Source: a virus
Length of the DNA: 64,000 bases
Virus record (IMG/VR): IMGVR_UViG_3300033182_001206
Coordinates: 1-64,000 of that record
Strand: one strand, 5' to 3'
Shown here: in pieces, positions 2,941 through 24,739 of the stretch
Position numbering within the stretch: position 1 is the first letter of the stretch
Layout of the letters: every line of letters starts with the position of its first letter
Position numbers and translations under genes: made by a program
Notes under the pieces: model-generated
Databases searched by the model: none
What the model was told of the DNA's origin: nothing
The model's input: only the letters and a program-made list of their open reading frames with translations

Positions 2941-4013
2941 AACCATATAGGCAGATACATTGGGACAGCAACGGATACAAAGGTCCTTGCTGTCTTTTTA
3001 TACGCAGCACCGGCGACTATGACCCTGTGGAAACCAAGCGTCTAATGAATGCCGGAAGACCAGTGCGTGGATGCAAACAATGCTATGCACAGGAACAGCG
3101 TGGCAGCAACAGCATGCGTTTGCAGAGCAACGAAGAACACAGTGCAGCCGAAGACATTGAAGAACTGTTTATTACATTGGGCACTGCATGCAACATGGCA
3201 TGTGTGTTTTGTAATCCCAGTCGCAGCAGCGGTGTTGCACAAGATATGCGTCGAGGCAGTGACAATCTGTACATAAACAATTTCTTTCAACAACAGTTGA
3301 GTTACGAACCACGAAATCAAAGCTGGTACAAGAGCAATGAATTTTGGAATGAACTACAACTGTTGGTCAAGCAGCACCCAATCAAAAAAATACATTTCTC
3401 CGGTGGCGAACCGTTTTTGAACAATAGGCTGTACAGTTTTCTCAATAGATTGCACAAAGATTTACAGATTGTGATTACAACAAACGGCAGCTGGAACGAA
3501 AACATACTGCATGTACTCAGTGAATTTAGACAACCGCATTTGGATATCAGTATAGACGGTGTAGGAGATTATTATGCTATTCAACGATATCCTTATACAT
3601 GGGATTGGTTTCAAGGGCAGTTTGAAATGCTAAAAGAATACGGAGCCAACTATGAAATAGATTGGACAATGAGCTTGGTGCCAAATGCACTAAACATTAT
3701 GAACATTGTACAGTGGTGTGAATTTGCAGGTCCTCGCAGCAATGTAAACTTTCTAAATGATATGCCGCACATGGGTGTATGGAATTTACCAGACAGTGCA
3801 AAAAGTCGTGCACGTGAATTGATGGATCATCCAACAGTGTTGGACTGCTTTGATCAAGCAGATTGGGAAGGTATTGTAAACGAATTTGACGAACCACAAA
3901 AATTTCCAGAAAAATTACATCAATTGGTAGAACACTGGAATATCACTAGAAATCAAGATATATGGAACACAGTAGGATGGCATCCCAATGAAGAAAATAC
4001 TAATAACAGGTAA
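2913..4013 (+). CDS. Radical SAM protein with N-terminal twitch-type cysteines
   Basis: 366 residues. Radical SAM motif CNMACVFC at Cys93, 97, 100, and SGGEPF at 163-168. The N-terminal cysteine module is shorter than in the two upstream paralogues: Cys8, Cys26-Cys27, Cys54 and Cys57. Core strand LDISIDGVGDYYAIQRYP matches NISVDGVESIYNVTRYP of the gene at 170-1291, so the two are close paralogues. Overlaps its neighbours by 28 and 26 bases. Three such enzymes in a row suggest successive or alternative modifications of one type of substrate; the substrate cannot be told from sequence. Confidence 0.88.
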   Translation: MDQQDTWCIEPYRQIHWDSNGYKGPCCLFIRSTGDYDPVETKRLMNAGRPVRGCKQCYAQEQRGSNSMRLQSNEEHSAAEDIEELFITLGTACNMACVFCNPSRSSGVAQDMRRGSDNLYINNFFQQQLSYEPRNQSWYKSNEFWNELQLLVKQHPIKKIHFSGGEPFLNNRLYSFLNRLHKDLQIVITTNGSWNENILHVLSEFRQPHLDISIDGVGDYYAIQRYPYTWDWFQGQFEMLKEYGANYEIDWTMSLVPNALNIMNIVQWCEFAGPRSNVNFLNDMPHMGVWNLPDSAKSRARELMDHPTVLDCFDQADWEGIVNEFDEPQKFPEKLHQLVEHWNITRNQDIWNTVGWHPNEENTNNR

Positions 4014-4545
4014 TCCTGAATCAGGATTAGCACGTAGTCTAGCAGGAGTATTTCCGCTTGCTGATTTTGTAAGCAGAGCAACAGGAGATAATCTCAGCGA
4101 TCCTGATGTAAGAGAACGCATTGCACAACGTGCACTGGACTATGATGTGTTTATAAATAACAGTGCACTATGGCGCTTTGAACAAACACTGATACTAGAG
4201 TCAGTATGGAAGGCTGCCGAAACGGCTGGAAAAACGCTACATATTGTGTGCGTAGGCAGTACTACTGATAGAGCAGCCAAGGGCAGCAGTTGGATATATC
4301 AACAAGAGAAAAAAGCATTGCGCAGCTATTGTAATCAATTGGCATTGCAAAGTGTTTGGAAAGAACGAGCAGTTCCTAGAGTAAGTCTTGTCAGTTTAGG
4401 AACACTGCACAACAATCAAGAAAAGCATCCTAACAGACGTGTTATGCACACAGACGATGCAGCAAGTTATATAAAATGGATAGTAGAGGCACCAACCAAT
4501 GTCAATATCAATGAACTCAGTGTTGACCCAATTCAACGAAAGTGA
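3988..4545 (+). CDS. SDR-like Rossmann-fold protein
   Basis: 185 residues. The N-terminus KILITGNPESGLARSLA is a nucleotide-binding beta-alpha-beta turn; VFINNSAL corresponds to the NNAG segment of short-chain dehydrogenases and IVCVGST to the strand with the catalytic Ser. A candidate Tyr-x3-Lys is YQQEKKAL. It is shorter than a standard SDR (about 250) and lacks the C-terminal substrate part. Probably an NAD(P)-dependent oxidoreductase or epimerase-like enzyme acting on an unknown metabolite. It overlaps the radical SAM gene upstream by 26 bases and the P-loop gene downstream by 47. Confidence 0.65.
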   Translation: MKKILITGNPESGLARSLAGVFPLADFVSRATGDNLSDPDVRERIAQRALDYDVFINNSALWRFEQTLILESVWKAAETAGKTLHIVCVGSTTDRAAKGSSWIYQQEKKALRSYCNQLALQSVWKERAVPRVSLVSLGTLHNNQEKHPNRRVMHTDDAASYIKWIVEAPTNVNINELSVDPIQRK

Positions 4546-5563
4546 CAGCAGCTTTTGGGATTGGCAACGATATTATATAGATAAAGAACACACAATTGTG
4601 AGTTACATGCCCGGCACCGGCGGCGAATGGATGTGTGGATTTTTGGCAAGTCATGCAGCATTGTCACATCAAAACACAGATATGAATCCTCAGCGTGTGA
4701 GCAGTCACAACCGCTGGAGAATCAAAGGCAGCAACATCAGCCATATGAGCAACAAATACAGAGACGAGTATTGGAACGAAGAAGAAATTTGGGATGGTAG
4801 CGAAGCATGGTTCAAGACCGCAGTTGGTCGTGCAATTGAATGGGGCACAGAACAAAACTTTAGACGCAACTTGGTTCTAAATCAAACCAATCAAACCATT
4901 ACTCGCAGTCACGAAGCATGGCAAGAAATTGCAGTATGGCCGCAGCAGTATCGTAGATTCAGAGTAATTACACTGATCAATGATCCAGAAGCAGGCACAT
5001 GGGATCAGTTGTGCAGCAACATTGCAAAGAAAATTTGGCTACATGAATACGAAAACGACGAAGACATGTGGGATGAGTTTGAAAACAAGTGGAGCAAGGC
5101 TGTAAAGCAACACCCTGAGGTACTGGGTAGAGAACGTGAAATACGTGAATTTATGGAATACTTGGGTGCACCTTACACATGGGTAAAAATACAATATGCT
5201 ATAAAAATGGCCATCAATGAGTTGGATCATGATAGAACAATGGACAGCCTACGAGGACATTGGGACGATGGTGTTGGAGAACAAAAGCTCAACGACTATA
5301 GACTGCCATTGCCTGTAGAAGAATACAAGTTGGATTTGCTGGCACTGCTGCAAACACAAGACTACGATGGTAAGTACTTAGAAATGTGCGAGTTTATGGG
5401 TATTGATAGACACAGTAAACATGACTTTGAAACCCTATGCGACTTTTATTTTGGCGATGACGCAAAAAATATTATTACCAGTGAACATTTGAAAGAAAGA
5501 TTGGAGGCGGTGTCAGACCATGCAAGATCATACAAGAGACAGACCACTAGAGCATTACTTTGA
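4499..5563 (+). CDS. P-loop protein, sulfotransferase-like, unknown function
   Basis: 354 residues from ATG 4499 (ATG 4511 is also possible). Near the N-terminus is TIVSYMPGTGGEWMCGFLAS, a strand followed by a glycine-rich loop and helix. It resembles the PAPS-binding loop of sulfotransferases but without the usual Lys/Arg-Ser/Thr signature. A close relative with YLEFAPGAGGDMFSMLAGS lies two genes downstream (6347-7210). The rest is rich in Trp, Asp and Glu with no domain I recognise. The two P-loop genes flank a ParB-like gene and all three are nested by overlaps of 25-44 bases, suggesting joint function. Confidence 0.6.
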   Translation: MSISMNSVLTQFNESDSSFWDWQRYYIDKEHTIVSYMPGTGGEWMCGFLASHAALSHQNTDMNPQRVSSHNRWRIKGSNISHMSNKYRDEYWNEEEIWDGSEAWFKTAVGRAIEWGTEQNFRRNLVLNQTNQTITRSHEAWQEIAVWPQQYRRFRVITLINDPEAGTWDQLCSNIAKKIWLHEYENDEDMWDEFENKWSKAVKQHPEVLGREREIREFMEYLGAPYTWVKIQYAIKMAINELDHDRTMDSLRGHWDDGVGEQKLNDYRLPLPVEEYKLDLLALLQTQDYDGKYLEMCEFMGIDRHSKHDFETLCDFYFGDDAKNIITSEHLKERLEAVSDHARSYKRQTTRALL

Positions 5564-6371
5564 AAACAAACACGCAGGCACAAAAGATTGGCTGATCAGT
5601 GTACCTATCGAGGATGCAGTACCACTGGATGGTGGTAAAGAAATGCACATACGATTGCGCAGTATTATGCGAAACAGTCGAGATTACACAGACTGGTTAC
5701 AGATTGATGCAACAACTGCTGAACGTATCAGCGGCGGTACTGACGAATTCTTTTTACACAAAGCTGCTATACTGGCAGACAGTATAAACAAAGACGGATT
5801 GTTTGCACCAGTTCATGTACACTGGCATTACAAACAAGGACAAATGCGGCATCCCAGCAACGACAAAATTGCAGTTATTTGTGCAGGATTGGTACACAGT
5901 ATCAGCAAGGTAAGAGTACTGTGGAGAGAAGTCAGTTGGCACAATGATCTATTTCCAGATCACGATTTCAGTGGCAGCAACAATTGGCTGATGCGTTATG
6001 AAAAGAAATTGATTGACGACGATGCAAAGTACAAAGCCATGTACAGAAGCGGATTGGACGGCAGCAATTTAATATTTGAGTGTGCAAATTATCGATATAT
6101 TTGGGAAAACTATCCAAACAATGTTTGGGGAAAGCTGAAACCATTTTATGAAAACTATGCAGGTGCACATGATTTTATTGCTGAAAAAGCCAAGATACTG
6201 GATACCACTTATGTAGTAGGAGTAGTAGACAGCTATCATAGAAAACAAATGTCAATCGAACACCCTACAAGAAAACTGGGCGATATTTTCAGTGTTGGCA
6301 AACACGGCATTGAAATGCACACAGAAACAGTGAACAAAAGTTGGACATGGGAAGAACTGAAGATTGGCTAG
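5520..6371 (+). CDS. ParB/sulfiredoxin-like domain protein
   Basis: 283 residues. A central block reads SINKDGLFAPVHVHWHYKQG then MRHPSNDKIAVICAGLV (about residues 88-130). The order 'x-DG-x2-P-hydrophobic strand-loop-HP(G/S)-x-(D/N)-(K/R)' resembles the nucleotide-binding core of ParB/Srx-fold domains. The same block recurs in the genes at 22344-23270 and 23873-24739, so these are a three-member family in this window. It sits between two related P-loop genes with overlapping ends. ParB-fold proteins include CTPases, nucleases and kinases; which activity applies here is not known, and the fold call itself is inference from a short motif. Confidence 0.5.
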   Translation: MQDHTRDRPLEHYFENKHAGTKDWLISVPIEDAVPLDGGKEMHIRLRSIMRNSRDYTDWLQIDATTAERISGGTDEFFLHKAAILADSINKDGLFAPVHVHWHYKQGQMRHPSNDKIAVICAGLVHSISKVRVLWREVSWHNDLFPDHDFSGSNNWLMRYEKKLIDDDAKYKAMYRSGLDGSNLIFECANYRYIWENYPNNVWGKLKPFYENYAGAHDFIAEKAKILDTTYVVGVVDSYHRKQMSIEHPTRKLGDIFSVGKHGIEMHTETVNKSWTWEELKIG

Positions 6372-7210
6372 GACTGGGTCCTAAGCGACTGGTATATTTG
6401 GAATTTGCACCAGGTGCCGGTGGAGACATGTTCAGCATGTTGGCTGGTAGTACCAGCAAAGGCACATTTGGTTTTGGCAAAAGCAGTGTAAACAAACGAC
6501 AACAACGGCTGGTAGCCAGTGGATTGAACCTGCCAGACAAGCGTATGATTTCTGGTATACAGTTTGCCGCTGAACACTTTACACGTATTCCTGTTATGCA
6601 GAACTATATACAGACTATGCTGATCAGTGCTGTGGGTTTGAGCATGTATGCCAATAGAGATCATCTTCAAACAAAAACGAAGTTCTGGGACGCATTGGCA
6701 AATTCACACACCATATGGGCAGCAGGACACCCCGGCGGAAACATGCTGGAGCATCACAATCGCAGTTGGGTATCAGCATGGCGACAGGGTGTTGAGTCAA
6801 TTGGTTGGAGTTATTTGCCTGTGCATGTGGTGTGCAACAGCTATGACAGTTTTCTATGGACCTGTTGTATTGCGCACAGTGCAAGGTTAGCGGATCAAAC
6901 ACATGAAACAGTTGAACCATTTATTGCCAAACAAGCACACTGGATAGACACTGCCAGAAGAACTGTAGAAGCAGATACACTGCAAATTGATTTTGTACAG
7001 CTGGTATTGGACAATAAACCAGACGAACTGCTGGCATGGATAAAACAAAATATAAATCAAGACATCAATGAATCAGTGTATTATGAAATATTTGAAAACT
7101 ACAGAGACATGCGCTATCAACATTTTTTGGACTGGAAAGAAAAGTTTGCAGACCGTCTTGACTTTTGGAAAGAAAACTATTATAATAAAATTTCAAACCC
7201 GAAAGGATAA
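6347..7210 (+). CDS. P-loop protein, sulfotransferase-like, unknown function
   Basis: 287 residues from ATG 6347 (TTG 6341 possible). Residues about 15-37 form a strand plus glycine loop, LVYLEFAPGAGGDMFSMLAG, related to the loop in the gene at 4499-5563. Later segments such as TIWAAGHPGGN and YLPVHVVCNSYDSFLW look like the beta strands of a sulfotransferase or kinase core, and the C-terminal part is helical and acidic. It overlaps the ParB-like gene by 25 bases and is followed after 6 bases by a radical SAM gene with its own Shine-Dalgarno (AAAGGATAA). Enzyme class uncertain. Confidence 0.58.
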   Translation: MGRTEDWLGLGPKRLVYLEFAPGAGGDMFSMLAGSTSKGTFGFGKSSVNKRQQRLVASGLNLPDKRMISGIQFAAEHFTRIPVMQNYIQTMLISAVGLSMYANRDHLQTKTKFWDALANSHTIWAAGHPGGNMLEHHNRSWVSAWRQGVESIGWSYLPVHVVCNSYDSFLWTCCIAHSARLADQTHETVEPFIAKQAHWIDTARRTVEADTLQIDFVQLVLDNKPDELLAWIKQNINQDINESVYYEIFENYRDMRYQHFLDWKEKFADRLDFWKENYYNKISNPKG

Positions 7211-7216
7211 TTACAC

Positions 7217-8374
7217 ATGGGCGACTTGAAATGGAGCGAGTATGACTTTACTAAAACGCCGTATGAAGATATTGTACGTGTGGGTCAGCGCACTATGCTT
7301 TATCGCGATATGTTTACAGTTAGTTGGCTACTTGGTAGATTCTGCAACTACAGATGCAGTTACTGCTGGCCCTATGCAAGAAGCGACCGTAAAGACCATC
7401 GTCCTACCGAGCTCTGCTTGCATACAGTGGATGATATCAAACGTCAAGCCCGAGAGCGAGGTTTCAATTCTTTTCACTTCTCCTTGTCAGGAGGAGAACC
7501 TACATTCCATCCTGGATACTTGGACATCTTGGCTCACTTGGCAGCAGATGTAAACAACACAAACTATACCAGTGTGCACATGACCAGCAACATGAGTCGA
7601 CCAATGAAATGGTTTGAAACCTATGTTGATCACAGTGCAAAGTTTCATAGAGCAAGTATCACAGCAAGTTTGCACACAGAACACCTAAATACACAAGAGA
7701 AGATGCAAGGGTTTGCAGACAAACTGATCTTCTGTCAGGAGCATGATGTACAAGTTACAATCAATATGGTCATGGTTCCGGAATGGTTTGACAGAGACTG
7801 GGAAAACGCACTGTTCTTCCATGAACAGGGAATTAATGTTACTCTCAAGCCCCAAAGCGATCCAACGGCCTCCCGTGTTGTGGATGGGTATACTGACGAA
7901 ATGCTGGCACGTATGCGCAACGGAATGCCGCAACGAGGATTCACAGAAATCAAAAACAAATACGTGACTAGACCCAAGCCTACATTCCACAAAGTACCGG
8001 ATCCTATTTACAGCAACTTTGATGCAGACGATGTGCCGCAGCACTTTCAAGTTGAATTCAAAGACAGCAAGCACAAAGAATATTACATGGATCAAGCAGA
8101 ACGCTTCAATGCATTCAACTTCAATCAATTTGAAGGCTGGGAGTGCAGCAGCGGAATGCGCAGCATCATTATACGTGAACCAGACGGCAGTGTCAAGCGC
8201 AGTTACAGTTGTAATGATGAACCGTTGGGCAATATCGAAACAGGGTTTGAACTGTTCAAAAAGCCCACAGTGTGCACAACCAAAAGCTGTGTAAGCAGCG
8301 CAGACAGCAAAATACCAAAGCGCCGTGCAGGCACAAAACTTCCGCTATTTCCCGGAGATGAATCATACAAATGA
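7217..8374 (+). CDS. Radical SAM protein, N-terminal core and C-terminal cysteine extension
   Basis: 385 residues. CNYRCSYC at Cys43, 47, 50 and SGGEPTFHPG at 91-100 give a textbook radical SAM core at the N-terminus, unlike the twitch-first proteins nearby. The C-terminal 70 residues hold Cys in WECSSGM, SYSCNDE, TVCTTKSC and a GNIETGFE stretch, as in SPASM-like auxiliary cluster domains. The whole arrangement resembles radical SAM proteins of sugar or nucleotide modification clusters. It starts a new ribosome-binding site (AAAGGATAATTACACATG), and a TATAATAA box lies near 7182-7189. Next gene overlaps as ATGA. Confidence 0.9.
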   Translation: MGDLKWSEYDFTKTPYEDIVRVGQRTMLYRDMFTVSWLLGRFCNYRCSYCWPYARSDRKDHRPTELCLHTVDDIKRQARERGFNSFHFSLSGGEPTFHPGYLDILAHLAADVNNTNYTSVHMTSNMSRPMKWFETYVDHSAKFHRASITASLHTEHLNTQEKMQGFADKLIFCQEHDVQVTINMVMVPEWFDRDWENALFFHEQGINVTLKPQSDPTASRVVDGYTDEMLARMRNGMPQRGFTEIKNKYVTRPKPTFHKVPDPIYSNFDADDVPQHFQVEFKDSKHKEYYMDQAERFNAFNFNQFEGWECSSGMRSIIIREPDGSVKRSYSCNDEPLGNIETGFELFKKPTVCTTKSCVSSADSKIPKRRAGTKLPLFPGDESYK

Positions 8375-8634
8375 GAAGATTTATTAGGAGTGCCCAGCGC
8401 AAGGAAATCAGCGGCACAGTTTATTATCACGAAAAAGAATGGGACATTGAAGAACAGTTTGCATGGTGGCCCGTATTACTGACCAATGGAAGCTGGTGTG
8501 TTTGGAAAAAATATTACATTGTAACAATTGATAGAAATGTAGATGCTAGACACAGATGGATAGATGTGCAAAAACTTTCGTATGATGAATATTTTTGGAA
8601 AGTGATGAGCGGTGAAATTCCTCAATCTAAATGA
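8371..8634 (+). CDS. Small protein rich in Trp and basic residues, unknown
   Basis: 87 residues, basic N-terminus (MRRFIRSAQRKEISG), then a short aromatic-rich fold with WWPVLLTNGSWCVWKKYYIV. No membrane helix, no metal-binding pattern and no family I know. ATGA overlap with the radical SAM gene upstream and a 23-base overlap with the asparagine-synthase-like gene downstream suggest co-translation. It could be a carrier or accessory subunit, or a peptide substrate, but this is guesswork from position alone. Confidence 0.55.
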   Translation: MRRFIRSAQRKEISGTVYYHEKEWDIEEQFAWWPVLLTNGSWCVWKKYYIVTIDRNVDARHRWIDVQKLSYDEYFWKVMSGEIPQSK

Positions 8635-9949
8635 CGATTTTGACCTATTGCTGGCAGACAGTGTAGAACTGTGGCACTGGGGCAAAGCCAACATGGATTG
8701 GCACGAAGTGTTTGAATCCTGTCGTGAAGGTGTGTTTCCACAAGACATCAGAGGACGTTTTGCATTTTACTATCGTGATCAACACAATGTGTTCATGTGT
8801 GTAAATCATGTAGCAGAAAAACCACTGTACTACACAGAGGATCGTTGTTTTGCATATCTCAACCGCTGGGTGTTGGATACAGAATTAGAAAAAAATGATG
8901 CTGTACATGAAGCACAACTGGGACTGTTGGGATTCTGTTACACCATTGGCGAGCACACTCCGTACGAACAAATACGCAGAGTAAAACCCGAACACTACTA
9001 TCACAATGGTGTGCAATATCGTTACAGTGATGTGAGCAGACCACGTGGCTATATTTGGGACGACGAGCTGTATAGACATTTGTTGAACAGCAGTCTTGAG
9101 CGTGAACTTGCAACACAGATGCAGGCCAGCATGCTGTTCAGCAGTGGCAGAGACAGTGCAGTGATTGCCAGTGCACTTGCCCAAACACGATTGAATAGAA
9201 AAGTAGATTTCTACACAATATATCATGAATCAGGCACACACAATGAAGTAGACGATGCTATGTCAAATGCATATCAGCTGGACATTGCACCAGTTGAACT
9301 ACGTGCAAATATAACCAGACCGTTGGATGCAGGATATGAATTCAACGACAGTGCATGGCATGTGAAGTATCAAACACTCAGCAGATACAACATCGACGGC
9401 TTGATCATCACTGGAGAAGTAGGAAACTGCATGAGCTATGGTGAAACTGGCAAACGTCTAAACTATTTCACCAACTGCTATGGAAAGATCAAACCAGAAG
9501 AAATTGCCAGCATGATCTGTTCTCATGTGGAAAACTTCAAACAAACCTGTACAAACACCAGCACATTTTCAGATCAGTTTCTACGTGACTCAGTGCATGC
9601 ACCTATAGCTTGGCAAATGATTGTGGACGATGTAGCTGATGATTTGAACAGATGGGGATTTCATTACAGCAAAGATCTTGATTACAAACGCAACTGTATC
9701 ATCAATGCAGGCAGTTTGCATCACAAGGTATTTAGACTGAGAGGATATTCACAGGACACTGGTAGACAGTATTTTCATCCGTTGGCAGACTACTATGTAA
9801 TGGAATACACATTGGGACTCAACTGGTTTGAACGTGAACAGCATGACACTGCCAAATGGTATTATCAACGTGCATATCAACAGAGCGGACCTTTTGCTAT
9901 TGCTGCATGGAACAACAATGTCAGAGGATTGGGTATAAAATGTCAATAA
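8612..9949 (+). CDS. Asparagine-synthase-like amidotransferase
   Basis: 445 residues from GTG 8612. SSGRDSAVIASALA (177-190) is the PP-loop SGGxDS signature of asparagine synthase, which adenylates a carboxylate with ATP; KVDFYTIYHESGTHNEVDDA follows as the second nucleotide-contact region. The first 150 residues resemble the Ntn glutaminase domain (FVEKPLYY-like VAEKPLYYTED at about 67-77), but the N-terminal catalytic Cys2 is missing: the protein begins MKFLNLND. It therefore probably uses ammonia, or makes an amide by another donor, as in beta-lactam and lasso-peptide cyclase relatives. Product unknown. Confidence 0.82.
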   Translation: MKFLNLNDDFDLLLADSVELWHWGKANMDWHEVFESCREGVFPQDIRGRFAFYYRDQHNVFMCVNHVAEKPLYYTEDRCFAYLNRWVLDTELEKNDAVHEAQLGLLGFCYTIGEHTPYEQIRRVKPEHYYHNGVQYRYSDVSRPRGYIWDDELYRHLLNSSLERELATQMQASMLFSSGRDSAVIASALAQTRLNRKVDFYTIYHESGTHNEVDDAMSNAYQLDIAPVELRANITRPLDAGYEFNDSAWHVKYQTLSRYNIDGLIITGEVGNCMSYGETGKRLNYFTNCYGKIKPEEIASMICSHVENFKQTCTNTSTFSDQFLRDSVHAPIAWQMIVDDVADDLNRWGFHYSKDLDYKRNCIINAGSLHHKVFRLRGYSQDTGRQYFHPLADYYVMEYTLGLNWFEREQHDTAKWYYQRAYQQSGPFAIAAWNNNVRGLGIKCQ

Positions 9950-13045: not shown

Positions 13046-13581
13046 TATAGTTCCGCTACGGCATAACAGTTTGCATCGCTGGTATCAGTGCCAAAAAATT
13101 CACTACGCTGTTCAAATCCTGCTGCGGTATATGCACGTAAACTTTCTTTACGTGGCATGGTCCACACTGTGTTGCAGTTTTCCAATCTTGCTTTTATCAA
13201 CAAACGGCGCAGCAGCATTTGTGCAATACCGTTGCCTCTATATTCTTGTTTTACATACAGTCCTCTGCTGCGATATACGTTTTCTGCTGTACGATGTCCA
13301 CTGTTACAACCAATCAATTCCAAGTTGTCAGTGTCTCGTTCTTTTATATACACAGCCCAAAATGTAGGCTCATACTTTTCATATATGGTCATATCAATGT
13401 TTTTAGCATCTGTCATACTGCTCATTGGACGAATATCCTGTCTACCCGGCCATAGATATCTACTCCACATGTCGTGTACAGCTTCAAAGCTGGTTTCTAT
13501 GATTTCTAATTGACCGCAATCACGACAGAATTCGCTGCCATATTCCATACAGTCGTTGCATCTAGGATCATGTGTTAGCAC
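13045..13581 (-). CDS. GNAT acetyltransferase with N-terminal zinc-ribbon-like cysteines
   Basis: 178 residues from GTG 13581, chosen because GGAGATGG stands just upstream (TTG 13599 is the alternative). Four cysteines near the start, C-x2-C...C-x2-C in RCNDCMEYGSEFCRDCGQ, could bind zinc. The GNAT core follows: YVKQEYRGNGIAQMLLRRLL is motif A, which binds acetyl-CoA, and SLRAYTAAGFEQRSEF is the motif B region. It should N-acetylate an amine, perhaps an amino sugar from this cluster. TAATG coupling to the SGNH-like gene downstream, 14-base overlap with the methyltransferase upstream. Confidence 0.8.
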   Translation of the reverse strand: MLTHDPRCNDCMEYGSEFCRDCGQLEIIETSFEAVHDMWSRYLWPGRQDIRPMSSMTDAKNIDMTIYEKYEPTFWAVYIKERDTDNLELIGCNSGHRTAENVYRSRGLYVKQEYRGNGIAQMLLRRLLIKARLENCNTVWTMPRKESLRAYTAAGFEQRSEFFGTDTSDANCYAVAEL

Positions 13582-14215
13582 GTTTCCATCTCCAAACAAT
13601 CATTGGACGAACCAATGTATCACCTTTTGCCAGACTCATTGCAATACCTGGATCTCTTGTGGCCACTTGATGTTGTATTGCCAAATCCTCTTCATCCATC
13701 AGAGCAGTATCTGTGTATCCAATTTCCAAATCAGTTGGAGCAAAACCGTATTTTTTACCCCAGTAGTTTATGGTATCTGTGGTCCAATCAAGTTCACTGT
13801 TTTCAGGATGCACATGGCATACCACTGTACCAGTATCACTAACCAAATAAGCAAAAGCTGCCATCAATTTTTGTACCCAAGCTGAGCCACCGTAGTTGAG
13901 AGGCCCAAAACACAATACCCAATCTGCTGCACCTTCTTGAAATACACAATTGCGCCGGAACGTGTCAATGTCCTGTACAATGTCTACACCAGGCAAGTCG
14001 GCAACATCAACACCAATTACATTTGGACACACTGATTTGAATTCATTGCTGCCGCAACCCAAATCAATTACCAAATCAGGATTGCTAGCAGTGATTTCTT
14101 CGGCAAGTGCACGACCGCTCAATTGACGATACAGTGCAAGATTGCGCTTGGCTACCTCATGTGGTGCTTCAAATCTTTCTTTCAGTTGTTCACAGCGTTC
14201 CAAGTATGTGGTCAT
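13568..14215 (-). CDS. SAM-dependent methyltransferase (four-member local family)
   Basis: 215 residues; ATG 14215 overlaps the upstream stop as ATGA. LVIDLGCGSNEFKSVCPNVI is SAM motif I with the unusual GCGSN-x-FK continuation, then GVDV at strand 2 and WVLCFGPLNYGG at motif IV. The same GCG-x-N-x-(F/Y)K and G-(P/S)-(L/F/I)-N-x-G blocks occur in the genes at 14212, 16620 and 19013, defining a paralogous set. Shortest of the four with a divergent C-terminus. Acceptor unknown; being next to sulfotransferases and an acetyltransferase suggests a sugar or glycan. Confidence 0.8.
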   Translation of the reverse strand: MTTYLERCEQLKERFEAPHEVAKRNLALYRQLSGRALAEEITASNPDLVIDLGCGSNEFKSVCPNVIGVDVADLPGVDIVQDIDTFRRNCVFQEGAADWVLCFGPLNYGGSAWVQKLMAAFAYLVSDTGTVVCHVHPENSELDWTTDTINYWGKKYGFAPTDLEIGYTDTALMDEEDLAIQHQVATRDPGIAMSLAKGDTLVRPMIVWRWKRANT

Positions 14216-15162
14216 GCAGGTTTTCTCCACCACCAGTTGTAACGAGGGCGTACACCATCGTGCATGTGTCTATCATAACGACTGTCTTTGAGTCTGCGCC
14301 AGTATTCGTTTTGCACTTTGATGTGTGCATCTTTGAGACCTTCTTGGTATTCCAGAGGATCCCACATGTCACTGTTGTCATGTTCTCTGTCCAACCATTT
14401 GTTGAATTCGTCAATGGGTGTGTCGTCTGGATTGAAACGCACCATGTAGTCTTCCAGCTGTGGCCAACTCAACTGACGTAGGTCTGTCCATTCAGTGATA
14501 ATTGGCGAACCATGTGTGCTCTGTTCGACCCATCCGGGCACACTCAAATGCGGATCGCACAGTTCCCAACCAAACTGTTCAGTAAAATCATGTACTGCTT
14601 GACGTGTCCAAGGATAGTGAATAATACCACGACTGTTGAATCCTGTGGCATCGCTTTTACGACCCGGACGTGCATGTCCGCATACAAGTCCTCCGGGTTT
14701 TAGTTTACGATAGCACAATCCAATCAAGTGTTCTTGTTCCTCTTGTGTGCCAAAATTGAATGGTCCTACACAGCGTATGGCGTCCACTGTGTTGTCTTGG
14801 AACAATTCCAGTGCATCATCGACATCCATTACCAGATCAACTCTGCCTTCGTATGGCAACAAGTCAATACCAATCAATCCCTTGATATGTTCTTTGAACA
14901 AACTGAATCCACATCCTAAATCCAACACAAGATCTGGATCCAGTGCATTGATTACTTTTGCTGCTGGAAATCCTGAACCTGTTTTGGTGTGCGATGTGGT
15001 TCTGATAATGTCACTGTGTCCAGTGCTAAAGTGATTGCGCAACTGTTCAAGTCGCATGTGTCTTGGCCAATTGGCCACTTCTTCAGGATCAAACTTGTTT
15101 TTCAGTTGGCTGAATGTGTTCATGTATCTTTCTGCTTGTTCAGCGTTTGCTTGTTCATTCAT
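14212..15162 (-). CDS. SAM-dependent methyltransferase (four-member local family)
   Basis: 316 residues. Motif I VLDLGCGFSLFKEHIKGLIG, IDL at strand 2, CVGPFNFGTQEEQEH at motif IV, and KLKPGGLVCGHARPG at strand 5. A helical region of about 50 residues precedes the core, and a 110-residue C-terminal part holds IIHYPWTRQAVHDFTEQFGW, which pairs with LCYPWTKSCIKEFGEMHGF of the 16620 paralogue. It ends in a Trp/Arg-rich tail similar to that paralogue (WWWRKPA versus WIWQKPD). Coupled by ATGA both to the gene before and the gene after it. Confidence 0.82.
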   Translation of the reverse strand: MNEQANAEQAERYMNTFSQLKNKFDPEEVANWPRHMRLEQLRNHFSTGHSDIIRTTSHTKTGSGFPAAKVINALDPDLVLDLGCGFSLFKEHIKGLIGIDLLPYEGRVDLVMDVDDALELFQDNTVDAIRCVGPFNFGTQEEQEHLIGLCYRKLKPGGLVCGHARPGRKSDATGFNSRGIIHYPWTRQAVHDFTEQFGWELCDPHLSVPGWVEQSTHGSPIITEWTDLRQLSWPQLEDYMVRFNPDDTPIDEFNKWLDREHDNSDMWDPLEYQEGLKDAHIKVQNEYWRRLKDSRYDRHMHDGVRPRYNWWWRKPA

Positions 15163-15917
15163 TTTGATAATCTATCCTCTAGGTATCTTGTGTTTATGTT
15201 TAGCCCATCAAACAGTTGGGGTATTAGTTCTTGATATGGTTTTTGTGCTCGGTGGAGAGCTGCAACCAGTTCATTGTAATTCTCGCAATCCTGTTCCCAA
15301 TTTTTTTCTTGGTATGTGAGTTTTGGACGAACACGTGTTTGTTGCAAAGGGTAAACATCGCTGATGTTCAACCAATTTGCCAGTTCAAGCGGATCAGTGG
15401 GCATTCCTTCATAGCATACTACTTCATCGTATACAACATCATCGCTGATGATTCCAGTGTAAATCAATTGTTCAATATAACTTTGGCACAGTTTGACAAA
15501 ATGAGCAACTGGTATTCGATAACGTTTACGGTCTAGTTTCAGTGCATGTCCTGTTTGTATTGCATTACTTATTGATCTATAAATTTGGTTGCTGCGAAAC
15601 ACAAATATATTATAATCAAAAAGGTCAACATAGTCTTTCCACATATCCGGATGCTGATGTTTTAGACACCAGCCGTGTTCGTGATGATGTTTTACCATAG
15701 CACGTGGCTGGTCTTGTACTTCGTCGTGTATAAATTCCAATCGCATCATTCTACGGCGTATGTCTATTGGCGGCTTTCCAACTAAATTACTGTCGTCGTC
15801 GCTCCAATGCAACGGTTCATCAAACATAGCTTCTGGACCTAATGCATATACGTCAGCCAGTGTATGCATCAAGTATGTGGTTCCGCATCTAGGAAATCCC
15901 CAAGAATGTATTCTCAT
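15159..15917 (-). CDS. Sulfotransferase-family protein
   Basis: 252 residues. The N-terminal WGFPRCGTTYLMHTLADVY is the 5'-phosphosulfate-binding loop of PAPS-dependent sulfotransferases. IFVFRSNQIYRSISNAIQTG (about 107-126) matches the 3'-phosphate-binding region with R and S. A conserved EVVCYEGMPTDP follows, as in the next gene (EVIAYEDLPTDP), so the two are tandem paralogues. Likely transfers sulfate to a sugar or lipid. A His run (KHHHEHGWC) at about 74-82 recurs in the neighbour. Overlaps both neighbours. Confidence 0.82.
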   Translation of the reverse strand: MRIHSWGFPRCGTTYLMHTLADVYALGPEAMFDEPLHWSDDDSNLVGKPPIDIRRRMMRLEFIHDEVQDQPRAMVKHHHEHGWCLKHQHPDMWKDYVDLFDYNIFVFRSNQIYRSISNAIQTGHALKLDRKRYRIPVAHFVKLCQSYIEQLIYTGIISDDVVYDEVVCYEGMPTDPLELANWLNISDVYPLQQTRVRPKLTYQEKNWEQDCENYNELVAALHRAQKPYQELIPQLFDGLNINTRYLEDRLSK

Positions 15918-16638
15918 TTGTAAATGCCAGTTTTATCATTTGTGGATTGAGTTCATAATCACTTGTAATTAGATTTGGTATCAATGAGGTAACATCACTG
16001 ATAGCTTCTTGCAATTCTGGCCAATTGGTTATGGCCTGTTTATAATTGGTACGACGATACGGATTCAACAGTTTGATGTTTTTTGTGATTGGAGGATGAA
16101 CATTGAATATGTTTAGTGTGTGCAGCATGTCCACCGGATCGGTAGGAAGATCTTCGTACGCTATTACTTCATCAAACTGATGACGTCGATATACAAGGCT
16201 TTGTAACAGATCTCCGAGATAGCTTTTGTATATAGCAACAAATTCTTCTACATCTACAATAAATCTATCATTTCTCCAATCACCTAAACCTTGCATAATA
16301 CAATGACTCAATGACCGATACATTAGATTTTTTCTGTATAAAAATATATTATAGTTATACAGACCATCGTACCATTGATATGTATTAGGCTTTAGTTTTT
16401 GTATACGTGTTTCATGTCTATGATGATGTTTACATATAACTGTTGTTTCATTGGTTATTTGATTGGTAACCTCAATGAAACGTTCTGCAACTTCCTGGTC
16501 TGATTCATATTTGGTGTTCCATAATGGTTCATCTAATTCTACATCAGGCTGATATGCCTGTTTCAAACTGTTGAACAAGTATGTGGATCCACAACGGGGG
16601 AAAGCCCAAATACAAATTTTTAATCCGGTTTCTGCCAT
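15889..16638 (-). CDS. Sulfotransferase-family protein (tandem paralogue)
   Basis: 249 residues from ATG 16638 (GTG 16650 possible). IWAFPRCGSTYLFNSLKQAY is the phosphosulfate loop; CKHHHRHETR and FLYRKNLMYRSLSHCIMQG match the upstream-neighbour sulfotransferase; EVIAYEDLPTDPVDMLHTLN completes the shared pattern. The first-translated order in the operon is methyltransferase (16620-17471), this gene, then the second sulfotransferase. Substrates unknown; two copies with different C-terminal halves suggest two different acceptors or positions. Confidence 0.8.
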   Translation of the reverse strand: MAETGLKICIWAFPRCGSTYLFNSLKQAYQPDVELDEPLWNTKYESDQEVAERFIEVTNQITNETTVICKHHHRHETRIQKLKPNTYQWYDGLYNYNIFLYRKNLMYRSLSHCIMQGLGDWRNDRFIVDVEEFVAIYKSYLGDLLQSLVYRRHQFDEVIAYEDLPTDPVDMLHTLNIFNVHPPITKNIKLLNPYRRTNYKQAITNWPELQEAISDVTSLIPNLITSDYELNPQMIKLAFTNENTFLGIS

Positions 16639-17471
16639 ATCCAAAACCACCTTTGTCTTATTGTTTGTGCAGGCGTGTCTGGCGCCGTCTGCCGTCTATT
16701 TACTTCATTTTGTATTGCAACCCATTGCGAGTACATGTCTCCGTCTTGTACTTCTTCTTCATATGGACGATTACCATCTACGGTGCGCTCCCACGGTTCA
16801 ATTGCTGCCAGTCGGTGCAAAACTTCATCTGTGAGTGTGCTGAGATCTGTACCATCCAAATCTGGTTCCATCACAACATCAAACCCGTGCATTTCTCCAA
16901 ATTCTTTTATACAGCTTTTGGTCCAAGGATAGCACAGTCCACGATTTTCTCTCCACGGATCCACATCAATGTGACCCCAGTTTGCTGGTTTTACCAATGC
17001 AATCAATTTGCCACCCGGACGTAATAATCCATGCATGGTGGTGATCATTTCATCAATTTCCTGTGTATCACCGTGATTTAGCGGACCAATTGCAGTGATA
17101 AAATCAAAACTATCGTCTTTGAGTTTGTGCACTGCTTCACGCAATGACCATCTTAGATCGCCGTTACCCCATGTACCAGGTTCAATGCCAATGATGTTTT
17201 TGATTTTGCCTTTGTAAGGATTGCTACCACAGCCTACGTCCAATACCTGTGCATCAGGATTTTCTGCGTTGATATAATCAACCAACCATTGTCCGCTGTA
17301 TTTGCGTGTGTCAAATGTAAACTCAGCAGTCCATGCATCGTAGCTTTTTTCATAGTTACGTGCAGTGTGTTGCCAACGAACTGACTCGGGCAAACGCCAC
17401 CAAGTGGGCATGTTGATTTCGCCAGTTACATTCCATTTTTTTCTAAAACGTTGTTTACCTAATTGTATCAT
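16620..17471 (-). CDS. SAM-dependent methyltransferase (four-member local family)
   Basis: 283 residues. Start ATG 17471 follows the upstream stop by one base; longer reading through 17576 would overlap the previous gene by 100 bases and is less likely. Motif I QVLDVGCGSNPYKGKIKNII, GIEPG at strand 2, FDFITAIGPLNHGDTQE at motif IV, LLRPGGKLIALVKPANWG at strand 5. C-terminal CYPWTKSCIKEFGEMHGF and IWQKPD tail link it to the 14212 paralogue. Probably the best-conserved member of the set. Acceptor unknown. Confidence 0.83.
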   Translation of the reverse strand: MIQLGKQRFRKKWNVTGEINMPTWWRLPESVRWQHTARNYEKSYDAWTAEFTFDTRKYSGQWLVDYINAENPDAQVLDVGCGSNPYKGKIKNIIGIEPGTWGNGDLRWSLREAVHKLKDDSFDFITAIGPLNHGDTQEIDEMITTMHGLLRPGGKLIALVKPANWGHIDVDPWRENRGLCYPWTKSCIKEFGEMHGFDVVMEPDLDGTDLSTLTDEVLHRLAAIEPWERTVDGNRPYEEEVQDGDMYSQWVAIQNEVNRRQTAPDTPAQTIRQRWFWIWQKPD

Positions 17472-17472
17472 A

Positions 17473-17829
17473 TTATTCCTTGCTAACGCTTTGTAAATGC
17501 ATCCAACCTGTGTCTTCGTGACATGCTCCTTTGCAAACCGGCGAACAGGTTTCTTCGTAGTCCCAACTTTGTGCATTCCAGTGTGTCATAAAAGCATCAT
17601 GCTTGAGTATTTTTTCCCATCCGTGCTCACGCACATCGTTCCAATCTTTGGGCAGATTGTCAATGTAGGAATCGCCTGTTTTGCCAAACTCAGCAAAAAG
17701 ATTTTGATAATAACAACAGGGCCATATGCGAAAATTTACATCGCAGTCTATTTCTGCACTGTCCATTGCAGCACAGCGTACACGCCCTTGCAGTTTAGTC
17801 AACTTCGATGTCGAGCAGTCTTCCGACAT
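17473..17829 (-). CDS. SPASM-like cysteine domain, second half of a split radical SAM protein
   Basis: 118 residues. Cysteines are arranged C...DCDVNFRIWPCCYY...TCSPVCKGAC, with DWNDVREHGWEKILKHDAF before the last group. This is the pattern of the C-terminal SPASM domain that binds auxiliary iron-sulfur clusters. It lies directly after the radical SAM core gene 17795-18487, in a frame shifted by one, with a 35-base overlap. Either the two halves are now separate, translationally coupled proteins, or a frameshift (real, programmed or a sequencing error) has split one gene. ATG 17829 itself has no strong ribosome-binding site. Confidence 0.7.
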   Translation of the reverse strand: MSEDCSTSKLTKLQGRVRCAAMDSAEIDCDVNFRIWPCCYYQNLFAEFGKTGDSYIDNLPKDWNDVREHGWEKILKHDAFMTHWNAQSWDYEETCSPVCKGACHEDTGWMHLQSVSKE

Positions 17830-18487: not shown

Positions 18488-19065
18488 TGACTTCTCAAAT
18501 TTATCATAATACTGCGTCTATCTACTGGACGCTCAATTGTTTTTACGCTGTGCCATGTGTCTGGGCCTGCTAAAAATCCCCAAGCACGATTGCGTTCAAA
18601 TGGTATTTGTGTTTCAGGTGGTTCGCCTACCCATGCACCAGTGTCTGCCAACTGAGAATTTCCAAAATATATTTGCAATGTGCCATAACCCAATGGTGAC
18701 ATTGTAGGCTTCATGTCTCTGTGTGCACCTTGACTGAATCCTTCTCCGTCCACATGCACACTTACATCTACTCTACAAGGCACTGAATCTGGCCAGCCCA
18801 GTGTTTGCATCAGCCATGGTTTCAGTTGCACATACCATATATCTCTAAAGCCCGACAAACCGGGACACATATGAGTTTGTCCTTCCGGGTAACAATCCTC
18901 ATGTGCATTCAGCAGTGTTTCCTGCCCGAACTCATATGCGTACAGTTCTTGTTCGACTTGTGTGTAAACTGATTCAGGCAAAAAGTTTTTCCAAGTGGCA
19001 TATCTAAAAGGACTAGATACCCAACTCACCTCGCCGAACCCAATGGGCATAGAAGCGTATTCCAT
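18484..19065 (-). CDS. Fe(II)/2-oxoglutarate-dependent oxygenase
   Basis: 193 residues. GAHRDMKP supplies the H-x-D iron ligands (about residues 123-125), and TWHSVK the distal His, followed by RPVDRRSIMINLRS with the Arg that pairs with 2-oxoglutarate. LGYGTLQIYFGN and RAWGFLAGPDTWHS are strands of the beta-helix core. It should hydroxylate an unknown substrate; T4-like marine phages commonly carry such genes. ATG 19050 is an alternative start. ATGA overlap with the radical SAM gene downstream and a 53-base overlap with the methyltransferase upstream. Confidence 0.82.
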   Translation of the reverse strand: MEYASMPIGFGEVSWVSSPFRYATWKNFLPESVYTQVEQELYAYEFGQETLLNAHEDCYPEGQTHMCPGLSGFRDIWYVQLKPWLMQTLGWPDSVPCRVDVSVHVDGEGFSQGAHRDMKPTMSPLGYGTLQIYFGNSQLADTGAWVGEPPETQIPFERNRAWGFLAGPDTWHSVKTIERPVDRRSIMINLRSQ

Positions 19066-19687
19066 TACCGTTTGTTTCTCTATCCTGTGCTAGTTCAACC
19101 ATTTCGCAGTTGCATCGTGTGGCAGCTTGTGAAAGTTTTTCTGGGCTCCATTCAAAAAAGTCAATCCATTCAGCACCCGGTCTGTTGTGCGTTACACCTG
19201 GATTCACTCTCAGGAAAATGTGTCCGCTTTCTTTGCACATGCTTACCAGTTTCAATGTTTGATAGTATATGCTTTCTTCGCTGCCAAAATTGATACTGCC
19301 CAATGCCAGTACAACATCAAATTCTTTTTCAGGTTGAAATTCCATAATACCTACATTTTCGTCGGCATTGGTATTGTATGGATCAATACCCCATAGATTT
19401 TGTATCTTGTCTTTGAATAAGTTGTATCCGCAGCCTACATCTAGTACCGACTCTGGATTGAGTGCATTGACTCGATCTATCAAGCTCATACCAGTTTGTC
19501 CGAAGTGTTCAGTGGCTTTTACTGCACCGTCACGTGAACCTTTCCACGCACCGTTTTCACCAAAGTACTTGTACATCAACTGTTCGTCAAGATTTTCCAA
19601 TAAAGGCAACATCAGTGTTTCGTCGGGCTGTACTCCAAATGTTTCCATGCACCAATCGTGTAGGGCCTTTGCAATTTTTCTATTCAT
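19013..19687 (-). CDS. SAM-dependent methyltransferase (four-member local family)
   Basis: 224 residues. VLDVGCGYNLFKDKIQNLWG is motif I in the local GCG-x-N-x-FK form; IDPYN at strand 2; FDVVLALGSINFGSEES at motif IV; SGHIFLRVNPGVTHNRPG at strand 5. N-terminal 70 residues are helical with WKGSRDGAVKATEHFGQTG, a segment likely to cap the substrate site. Relatives of this single gene are common in T4-like marine phages. TAATG junction with the small gene upstream. Confidence 0.83.
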   Translation of the reverse strand: MNRKIAKALHDWCMETFGVQPDETLMLPLLENLDEQLMYKYFGENGAWKGSRDGAVKATEHFGQTGMSLIDRVNALNPESVLDVGCGYNLFKDKIQNLWGIDPYNTNADENVGIMEFQPEKEFDVVLALGSINFGSEESIYYQTLKLVSMCKESGHIFLRVNPGVTHNRPGAEWIDFFEWSPEKLSQAATRCNCEMVELAQDRETNGNGIRFYAHWVRRGELGI

Positions 19688-22343: not shown

Positions 22344-23270
22344 ATGCGTACATTTCAGCAAAATACCAATGATCGAGTCAAAGAAGGATACATTGATCAC
22401 TTTCTTGACTGGAGTTCAAGTACACACAATGCTAAGTATATAACAGGAACAGTCACAAGTCAAGAGTTTACTGACATACTCACAGGCGGGAAAAACGTGC
22501 TTGCTGACTTCACTCGTATCATAGACAATTTTCTCAACGTGAGTGTGGAGAAAAAACGACTGTTTTACGAAATGGGTCCAATGAAAGTCACAGCTGAAAA
22601 TCCAGATGAAGATCTGCGTCATTTGTACAGACTGTTCAAAATCTATTGGTTGGGCAAGAACATTGATCGCAATGGTATTACTTCGCCTGTGCAACTACTT
22701 AGCTTTGGCTTTCCCACTGTGAACTGTCATCCTGGCAGCGACAAAAGACATGCTATTATGTTTTTGGCCAAGCCTACCACTGTGCCATTTGTGTACATTG
22801 ACTACAAAGGCTGTGATTATAAATTTTATGAACAGTGGGACAACTGGTGGGAATGCACCACACGTGAACAGATTATAGCAGCATTTCCCAACTTCTATCA
22901 TAGAACACATCATTGTGTGTACGAATGGATAGACATGTGGAAATCAGGTTGCAGCAGTCACAACACACCAGTGCACAATGGCATAAAAAAATATCATAAA
23001 AAAGCCACACAAGAATGGAACTATTGGAGAACAAGAATTGGTGTATGGCACCTCAGTTATTATGATGCTATACACAGACACGGCATGAACGATGATAGAG
23101 ACATGCTGTGGGATATACAACTGCAAGACACACGCACACTGTGGATTGGAGATCAGAGATTTGAAAAAATAAGCGGAGTATGGACACCAGACAATGGAAA
23201 CTTTGACAGCTATGCAAAACCACTCAACCCAATTGACAAATATACTGCCTACAGTGCATGTTGGGTATGA
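22344..23270 (+). CDS. ParB/sulfiredoxin-like domain protein
   Basis: 308 residues, opening a rightward unit back to back with the glycosyltransferase gene (21-base gap containing TTATATAG). The block NIDRNGITSPVQLLSFGFP then VNCHPGSDKRHAIMFLA (about 112-150) is shared with the genes at 5520 and 23873, and a strand VPFVYIDYKG follows. N-terminal 100 residues are helical; C-terminal half is aromatic and rich in His and Trp (YHRTHHCVYEWIDMWKSG). Fold call by motif resemblance only; the HPGSDKR segment is the best candidate for a nucleotide or phosphate contact. Confidence 0.5.
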   Translation: MRTFQQNTNDRVKEGYIDHFLDWSSSTHNAKYITGTVTSQEFTDILTGGKNVLADFTRIIDNFLNVSVEKKRLFYEMGPMKVTAENPDEDLRHLYRLFKIYWLGKNIDRNGITSPVQLLSFGFPTVNCHPGSDKRHAIMFLAKPTTVPFVYIDYKGCDYKFYEQWDNWWECTTREQIIAAFPNFYHRTHHCVYEWIDMWKSGCSSHNTPVHNGIKKYHKKATQEWNYWRTRIGVWHLSYYDAIHRHGMNDDRDMLWDIQLQDTRTLWIGDQRFEKISGVWTPDNGNFDSYAKPLNPIDKYTAYSACWV

Positions 23271-23898
23271 CCACAGGCACACAGAAATGTATGATCTGTG
23301 TTGTCGCAGTCTGAAAAGACACACAGAAAACAATGTGCACATCTATGCAAATTGCGGATCGCACATTCCTGGATACAACAGAGCAGCGGCAGCAAACGAA
23401 AGCACCAGCTTTGTGTACAGCAGATTTCTAGTGCCGTACCTGCAGGGCTATCGTGGCTGGGCGGCATTTTGCGATGGTGATTTTTTGTGGCAAGACGATA
23501 TACGAAAACTTTTTGCAGCAGTAGATGATCAATATGCTGTAATGGTATGTCAACATGACTATGTGCCCAAACCAAATCCAAAAGCATTTGGACACGTACA
23601 AGAACCATTTCCAAGAAAAAACTGGAGCAGTCTAATACTGTGGAACTGTGCTCATCCTGCAAACAGATTGCTCACACTGGATTATATAAACTTTGCACAA
23701 CCGTGGCAGTTGCACAGATTTGTACATCTACAGGATTCAATGATTGGCAGCATAGATCTGCGATGGAATTGGTTGGTAGACGAATATGCTTACACCGAAA
23801 CTGCTGGTGCGCTGCACTATACCAATGGCGGACCGTGGTGCGGCATTGAGACTGGACAAGACAAACAATACTATGAATACAAAAAACAATTGGGCTAA
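23194..23898 (+). CDS. GT8-like glycosyltransferase
   Basis: Up to 234 residues. TVHVGYDHRHTEMYDLCCRS is the typical first strand and helix, SRFLVPYLQGYRGWAAFCDG then DFLWQDDI holds the D-x-D at which metal and NDP-sugar bind, and SSLILWNCAH is the following strand. Homologues usually begin about five residues before HVGYD, so the true start may be ATG 23212, TTG 23233 or GTG 23254, reducing the 77-base overlap with the upstream gene. It ends 26 bases inside the next gene. Probably adds a hexose to a glycan. Confidence 0.75.
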   Translation: METLTAMQNHSTQLTNILPTVHVGYDHRHTEMYDLCCRSLKRHTENNVHIYANCGSHIPGYNRAAAANESTSFVYSRFLVPYLQGYRGWAAFCDGDFLWQDDIRKLFAAVDDQYAVMVCQHDYVPKPNPKAFGHVQEPFPRKNWSSLILWNCAHPANRLLTLDYINFAQPWQLHRFVHLQDSMIGSIDLRWNWLVDEYAYTETAGALHYTNGGPWCGIETGQDKQYYEYKKQLG

Positions 23899-24739
23899 CG
23901 AAACAGATCCCAAAGCCATAAACCTGCTTACCTCACACAAGGACGACAGTGTGGTACAGGATTATTTAGACAACAGTGGTAACCAACTGTTGCTAGGGCG
24001 ATTGGATTATCGCATGATGCACACTGTGACCTATTATACAGAAACACACAGTGTAGAACACAAAATACGACGACATCTCGAGAGTAGCAGCATAGACCAA
24101 TATGCACAAGAACGCTGGGGACATTTTCACAATCATGAAGCATACTATTTTATGCACAAGATGTGTTTGATCTCCGGCGACCTTTATAGAAATGGACAGC
24201 TTGCTCCATTGCAAATGCAAGCTGCATGGGAACATGGCAGAGAATGCATAGGGTTCAGACCGCATCCTGGTAGTGACAGAGAAGTGTTCATCAGTGTGAT
24301 GGCAAGGTTAGGGCTGCTACCAGAAGCTGTTCCAGTGCAGTTTGAAATATATCCTTGGATGCAAGATTATCCTATCAATCCAGCATTTCATCGTGTGCGC
24401 CCGTTGCTACAACAGGTAACAACACGAGAACAAATGCGTGAATACTATCTCAACTGGGACCTCACACAGTTTTACAATGTGCATTGGGATAGACAATATA
24501 TCATAGACGGAGGCCCAGGGTTCATGCGCAACTTTATGAAAAACATGAACACCATTGAGGGAGACATATCTGGACAACACTTGGAACTCAAAGCATTGAC
24601 CTTTAGGATTGAATTGCGTGACACACTGGAACGCTTTTTAGATGAATATCGCGAGTTTGATGATAGAATTGAATTTGGTGCTTGGACCATGTGGCATCGC
24701 AAAAATCTATTAGAATGCGATGCTAGTCGGCTGTGGTAG
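23873..24739 (+). CDS. ParB/sulfiredoxin-like domain protein
   Basis: 288 residues from ATG 23873. The block LYRNGQLAPLQMQAAWEHGR then GFRPHPGSDREVFISVMARL (about 108-150) matches the genes at 5520 and 22344. Next comes PVQFEIYPWMQDYPINPAFH. The first 100 residues are helical with many His and Tyr; the C-terminal 80 are acidic. Together with the gene at 22344 it encloses a glycosyltransferase, as the 5520 gene is enclosed by P-loop proteins. Function unknown. Its 3' end overlaps the convergent gene by 17 bases. Confidence 0.5.
   Translation: MNTKNNWANETDPKAINLLTSHKDDSVVQDYLDNSGNQLLLGRLDYRMMHTVTYYTETHSVEHKIRRHLESSSIDQYAQERWGHFHNHEAYYFMHKMCLISGDLYRNGQLAPLQMQAAWEHGRECIGFRPHPGSDREVFISVMARLGLLPEAVPVQFEIYPWMQDYPINPAFHRVRPLLQQVTTREQMREYYLNWDLTQFYNVHWDRQYIIDGGPGFMRNFMKNMNTIEGDISGQHLELKALTFRIELRDTLERFLDEYREFDDRIEFGAWTMWHRKNLLECDASRLW

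Follow-up and report, generated by a model that had tools for sequence, protein, structure and literature searches.

A conserved gene trio around a putative ParB/Srx-fold protein in the biosynthetic island of a phage resembling T4-like marine myoviruses

The ParB fold binds CTP, ATP or GTP and is often joined to enzyme domains; the arginine of its P-motif is needed for nucleotide binding, and phage versions of the fold are common and diverse (PMC12704722). SerK (TK0378) is a serine kinase that was formerly annotated as ParB (PMC5120207). Among the first five genes of phage Tonitrus are those for a ParB-like nuclease domain, for a protein with an aGPT-PPlase2 domain and for a 5-hmU DNA kinase (PMC11955845). 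Pelagimyophages have host-recognition islands in which GT8 glycosyltransferases occur together with radical-SAM cassettes, and a change of the host O-chain is the presumed effect of these islands (PMC7029224). Here we compare these systems with a locus of three adjoining viral genes, A, B and C, whose order is new as far as searched.

The window, i.e. the whole stretch of 64,000 nucleotides that was analysed, covers positions 1 to 64,000 of IMGVR_UViG_3300033182_001206, a virus record of 75.8 kb in IMG/VR. Baseplate wedge proteins are encoded at the end of the source record (PHROG 10646, E 1e-276; PHROGs 261/43), and the window encodes a virion structural protein of 2371 amino acids. Together with the layout, these genes fit a T4-like marine myovirus. 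The trio lies in the part of the genome that serves the tail and host recognition, where glycosyltransferases, sugar nucleotidyltransferases and sulfotransferases are also encoded, among the last a Stf0-like protein at 43102. The island further contains SPASM radical-SAM, SDR, asparagine-synthase-like, carbamoyltransferase, C-methyltransferase, cytidylyltransferase/mannose-6-phosphate isomerase-like, PhyH, desaturase, acetyltransferase and GT8-like proteins. It fits the pelagimyophage type of host-recognition island: as in the pelagimyophage and cyanomyophage islands, cassettes of GT8-like and radical-SAM genes share one part of the genome with baseplate genes of the T4 type and a gene for a large virion structural protein. 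In contrast, the trio and the HPGSD family described below are not mentioned in the passages of PMC7029224 considered here, and no gene of the present phage could be named as gp14 or VrlC.

Several gene groups of the island are observations in their own right. At least five diverged SPASM-type radical-SAM paralogs are encoded by this one phage (170-4013 and 45934-49946), and related records as well as the Vibrio phages K566 and K567 have clusters of this kind. Four mutually related methyltransferase-like proteins (13568-14233, 14212-15162, 16620-17576 and 19013-19687) lie in the minus-strand part of the island. Three further diverged paralogs, about 20-29% identical, are found at 36357-37511, 41220-42164 and 43709-44692; one of them adjoins the Stf0-like gene, and the one at 36357, the member of the three that was searched, has no Pfam or PHROG match. 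The adjoining paralogs at 15159-15917 and 15889-16650 carry FPRCG[TS]TYL loops and look sulfotransferase-like by eye, have no Pfam match and are absent from the seven related records compared. In one related record, genes at G016:10416-13877 resemble, by eye, an ABC transporter set of periplasmic binding protein, ATPase and permease.

All three genes of the trio are on the plus strand, at 4499-7210, where the first-pass annotation had placed them. Gene A (4499-5563, 354 aa) carries the P-loop-like segment IVSYMPGTGGEWMCGFL near its N-terminus. Gene B (5520-6371, 283 aa) encodes a predicted ParB/Srx-like domain at about residues 20-140 together with a C-terminal part, and gene C (6347-7210, 287 aa counted from the ATG at 6347) carries the P-loop-like segment LVYLEFAPGAGGDMF. 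A near-identical record, IMGVR_UViG_3300017913_001966, encodes A, B and C with 98%, 93% and 95% identity, and the differences fall mainly at third codon positions. The dN/dS values against this close copy are 0.011/0.187 (~0.06) for A, 0.034/0.248 (~0.14) for B and 0.027/0.126 (~0.22) for C. From this codon-position bias and these ratios we conclude that A, B and C are real coding genes under purifying selection. The overlaps of 44 bases between A and B (5520-5563) and of 25 bases between B and C had been reported correctly, the latter given the ATG at 6347, the same methionine at which the protein of a distant ortholog starts; a longer version of C from TTG 6341 would extend the overlap to 31 bases. 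These overlaps had also been put forward as a notable trait of the trio. However, overlapping is the rule among same-strand neighbours in the window (85% of them, and 47% with at least 20 bases in common when longest ORFs are counted), so that the overlaps of the trio carry little information, and we rejected them as the mark of a special unit.

The trio recurs with its surroundings, as the first-pass annotation had hoped to see for a functional system. The same order and neighbours are found in the near-identical record and in two more distant ones, G015 (85.8 kb) and G016 (80.2 kb), with trio identities of 45/40/32%; these two represent approximately the same phage, so that the conservation of order covers two lineages. 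Preserved is the series radical SAM, SDR, A, B, C, radical SAM, asparagine-synthase-like. Upstream, on the plus strand, are the SPASM radical-SAM gene (1705-2940) and the SDR-like gene (3988-4545, a weak match) that directly precedes A; downstream, on the same strand, are a radical-SAM gene (7217-8374), whose ortholog in G016 likewise stands right after C, and the asparagine-synthase-like gene (8612-9949). In this order the four neighbours are 76, 69, 74 and 56% identical to their orthologs in G016, the SDR-like one at the same place, compared to 45, 40 and 32% for A, B and C. Judged from these identities, the trio is retained but diverges more rapidly than the genes around it. All records compared are fragments; they were gathered via a baseplate protein, and G015 and G016 were added by a three-sequence alignment of B2, a relative of B described below. 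A further record, G008, ends inside the downstream radical-SAM gene, which makes the absence of the trio there uninformative.

Beyond this phage group the searches returned little. Single-protein searches with the trio proteins matched only the close copy. When 50,697 phage records were searched at the DNA level and by tblastn, neither A, B, C and B2 nor the distant counterparts of A, B, B2 and B3 yielded anything useful. Genome scans with the A and B3 profiles gave no relatives, and three diversity-adding scans found nothing beyond this phage group; with proteins as divergent as these, such searches of phage, genome and viral collections pick up fairly close relatives only. Vibrio phage K566 carries radical-SAM/glycosyltransferase clusters, and the B-family profile finds nothing in this phage; such cassettes can thus occur without the trio.

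The neighbours also bear on the product of the operon. With SPASM radical-SAM, asparagine-synthase-like ligase and SDR genes surrounding it, the trio could belong to an operon whose product is a modified peptide or a small natural compound, which A, B and C would tailor or supply with a phosphorylated precursor. We regard this as rather unlikely, since sugar enzymes are plentiful in the island at large and no precursor peptide was identified among the ORFs tested, small ORFs near 1288-1730 apart.

No match to A, B or C was found in Pfam, PHROG or NCBIfam, and a PDB sequence search with the three profiles returned nothing meaningful. For B, an AlphaFold2 model was built from 11 family members. 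Its mean pLDDT is 49, with residues 10-50 and 90-175 better than this average. The order of elements is a strand, helices, a long helix at 76-92, two strands at 98-110, a helix at 116-123 and a strand at 130-137. G93..P97V follows the long helix, and HPSNDK occupies 111-116 and is followed by a helix. The best Foldseek match against the PDB is weak (E 0.58), and the leading rows are nearly all ParB (CTP-bound), Noc, sulfiredoxin, PadC, SbnI, pNOB8 ParB-N, Spo0J, KorB and Osa. Re-alignment of the model with VIA returned the same set of proteins with Z values of 2.9-4.6. Such agreement is unlikely for a random model, even though the fold could not be proven from these scores by themselves. Because the comparison of this low-confidence model gives almost only proteins of this type, B likely has a ParB/Srx-type nucleotide-binding fold, and the earlier description of the middle gene as ParB-like holds at this level. 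For B, a helix with a G..P loop is predicted, then two strands, the P-motif loop and a further helix and strand, which would be the succession of ParB-CTPase/Srx proteins. In contrast to these, B and its relatives carry HP[GS]xD[KR] in place of the usual GxxR(R/H), and B has a long C-terminal part, of which the last 110 residues have no assigned fold in the model. In HPSNDK, S replaces the G of GxxR and K replaces the R; B2 and B3 have GSDK and GSDR. From the sequence, these substitutions in B could mean lost or altered nucleotide binding.

A role of B as partition ParB in a ParABS system was rejected, since six records contain no ParB_N (PF02195) match up to E 10 (11 of 14 controls match) and no ParA-type gene was found, PF13614 being without a hit in the same number of records, all fragments (14 of 14 controls match). 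The fold matches nevertheless include Noc, KorB and canonical ParB besides enzymes, and PMC12704722 lists proteins of this fold, DndB among them, that bind DNA or serve as repressors. B could on these grounds be a nucleotide-dependent regulator or a DNA-binding clamp of the DndB, Noc or KorB kind, controlling the island or phage DNA, with A and C as operon members unrelated to it. We consider this unlikely. The missing PF02195 and ParA-type matches speak against it, as does the fact that no DNA-binding domain was identified in B, its C-terminal part being unassigned in the model; moreover, three family members of one genome are located in enzyme operons beside transferase-like genes. SerK and SbnI resemble B in setting: they use the ParB fold outside DNA segregation and in a biosynthetic context, and SbnI is among the fold matches of B. 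The catalytic residues of these kinases could not be matched in B, and no sequence homology to B was detected; an acidic catalytic residue at the kinase position is not demonstrably common to all members of the B family.

On the evidence of its sequence, B is a member of a new family with the motif HP[GS]xD[KR] and three members in the window. B2 (22344-23270, plus strand, 308 aa) carries HPGSDK and has orthologs of 57-59% identity in G008, G012, G015 and G016; B3 (23873-24739, plus strand, from the ATG at 23873) carries HPGSDR and has orthologs of 37-40% identity. In each member the motif, HPSNDK in B, follows a helix and a G..xP segment. A pattern for this whole segment is found in 11 of 627 distinct ORFs, all of them family members, and in none of 200 shuffles; it was built from the members themselves, and the shuffles test chance occurrence, not kinship. 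Kinship of B and B3 follows from a profile-profile comparison, in which the B3 cluster ranks first of 221 clusters with E 4e-8 over 151 columns. B2 is joined to the family mainly via B3-type relatives (phmmer 8e-6), and one family profile recovers all 14 members from six records. Searching viral contigs with a degenerate DNA pattern of the HPGSDK box gave one chance match in an unrelated contig. Between B2 and B3 lies a glycosyltransferase gene (23194-23898, plus strand; PHROG 28018, E 3e-35), an ortholog of which scores near the Pfam GT8 cut-off. The cassette of B2, GT8-like gene and B3 has the same order in the window and in G008, G012, G015 and G016, five records in all. The further ParB-like members flanking a glycosyltransferase, which the first reading of the sequence had pointed out, are thus present and conserved.

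For A and C, the loops YMPGTGGEW and FAPGAGGDM are both present as described; in a distant ortholog of C the loop reads ISGSAGDLF. Near the N-terminus of both proteins a hydrophobic strand leads into [PAS]G[TSA][GA]G[ED], after which comes a large hydrophobic residue. Of 627 ORFs, this pattern, designed post hoc, picks out the six sequences of A and C and no others, and it occurs in none of the shuffles. In A, the segment is common to the window and the 45% identical ortholog in G016, and it is followed by the invariant stretches TITRSHEAW and FRVIT. A classical Walker A sequence, GxxxxGK[ST], was not found in these loops: GTGGEW in A and GAGGDM and GSAGDL in C lack the lysine and the loop-end Ser/Thr. 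The two proteins had been called paralogous, which the profiles do not bear out: A and C align over 15 columns with E 0.096, and the 12 best matches of A in 221 clusters do not include C. With no profile link, no family match and a model of A at a mean pLDDT of 40, which is unusable, we dropped the designation of paralogous P-loop proteins and keep that of a P-loop-like segment for each.

Neither A nor C matches sulfotransferase or kinase families; PF00685 matches only the gene at 43102 and its ortholog in a related record (G003). A and C could still be divergent PAPS sulfotransferases that work with the sulfotransferase-like genes of the island, with B as an accessory. By eye, A has a loop before a helix, an R-S-H segment and the strand FRVITLIND, and thus the three motifs in SULT order; a Stf0-like gene is present in the window, and an APS-kinase-like gene in a related phage record. 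The P-loop-like segment is likewise shared with PAPS sulfotransferases. However, this assignment seems doubtful: profiles link neither protein to sulfotransferases from within or beyond this genome, the 3'-phosphate motif lacks its arginine, and the model of A lends no help. Separately, a small protein at L067:3007-3684 (G016:21007-21687) has the loop IIYPGGAGGNF and a later TFIVINSRDP segment; it is a possible link of A-type loops to sulfotransferases, with weak profile scores.

A ParB-like gene beside P-loop and transferase genes also recalls the thymidine hypermodification sets, in which ParB-like genes accompany a DNA-base kinase and an aGPT-PPlase. In line with the Tonitrus precedent (PMC11955845), the trio could be part of a pathway of DNA-base hypermodification, made up of a ParB-like protein, a P-loop DNA-base kinase and a transferase, and the radical-SAM and amide-ligase-like enzymes of the window could act on the base. 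This appears quite improbable: HMUDK_hel (PF18723) and ADDT (PF18724) were not found in six to eight fragment records, in a comparison whose controls are weak, and unlike in those sets the enzymes around the trio are of the sugar and envelope type, in a tail and host-recognition setting with sulfotransferases.

The reading that we favor, tentatively and with a probability of about 0.42, is that the trio carries out a step that depends on a nucleotide, in an island that modifies the envelope or glycans, with B as a ParB/Srx-fold nucleotide binder and A, perhaps also C, as its partners. The enzymatic context of the trio would support it, as would the position of B2 and B3, likewise beside a transferase, in five records. 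A, B and C would then form a conserved sub-module of a large biosynthetic and surface-modification island that adjoins the baseplate genes. B may bind its nucleotide in a pocket formed by the helix and by two loops, GxxxP and HPSNDK (HPGSDK/R). Most likely, the substrate of the nucleotide-dependent step that B would catalyse or gate is a small molecule or sugar, whose synthesis we would assign to the neighbouring radical-SAM, SDR, amide-ligase-like and glycosyltransferase enzymes. In this it would act like the ParB-fold serine kinases SerK and SbnI and not like a chromosome-partition ParB. A, and perhaps C, may be partner transferases that hold a phosphate-containing donor via the P-loop-like segment, and the product would most plausibly be a change in the envelope glycan. 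The most economical reading of the family is that B, B2 and B3 each perform or gate nucleotide-dependent steps beside a transferase-like partner. A more far-reaching version, which we think unlikely, takes the HP[GS]xD[KR] proteins as undescribed phage ParB/Srx-fold enzymes, present in three diverged copies per genome, each with transferases of its own (A and C, or a GT8-like protein), that carry out an unprecedented nucleotide-dependent reaction in the assembly or decoration of surface molecules.

It is increasingly recognised that the ParB fold serves as a nucleotide-binding module of general use, well outside DNA partitioning. Few phage ParB-fold proteins have a gene context that suggests a reaction, and here a triplicated family is found in conserved enzyme cassettes. 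This context suggests chemistry run by the virus rather than DNA partitioning. Conserved and without a known match, A and C may be new donor-binding transferases. The B family, twice beside transferase-like genes, offers a testable case for ParB-fold enzymes in the viral remodelling of the host envelope.
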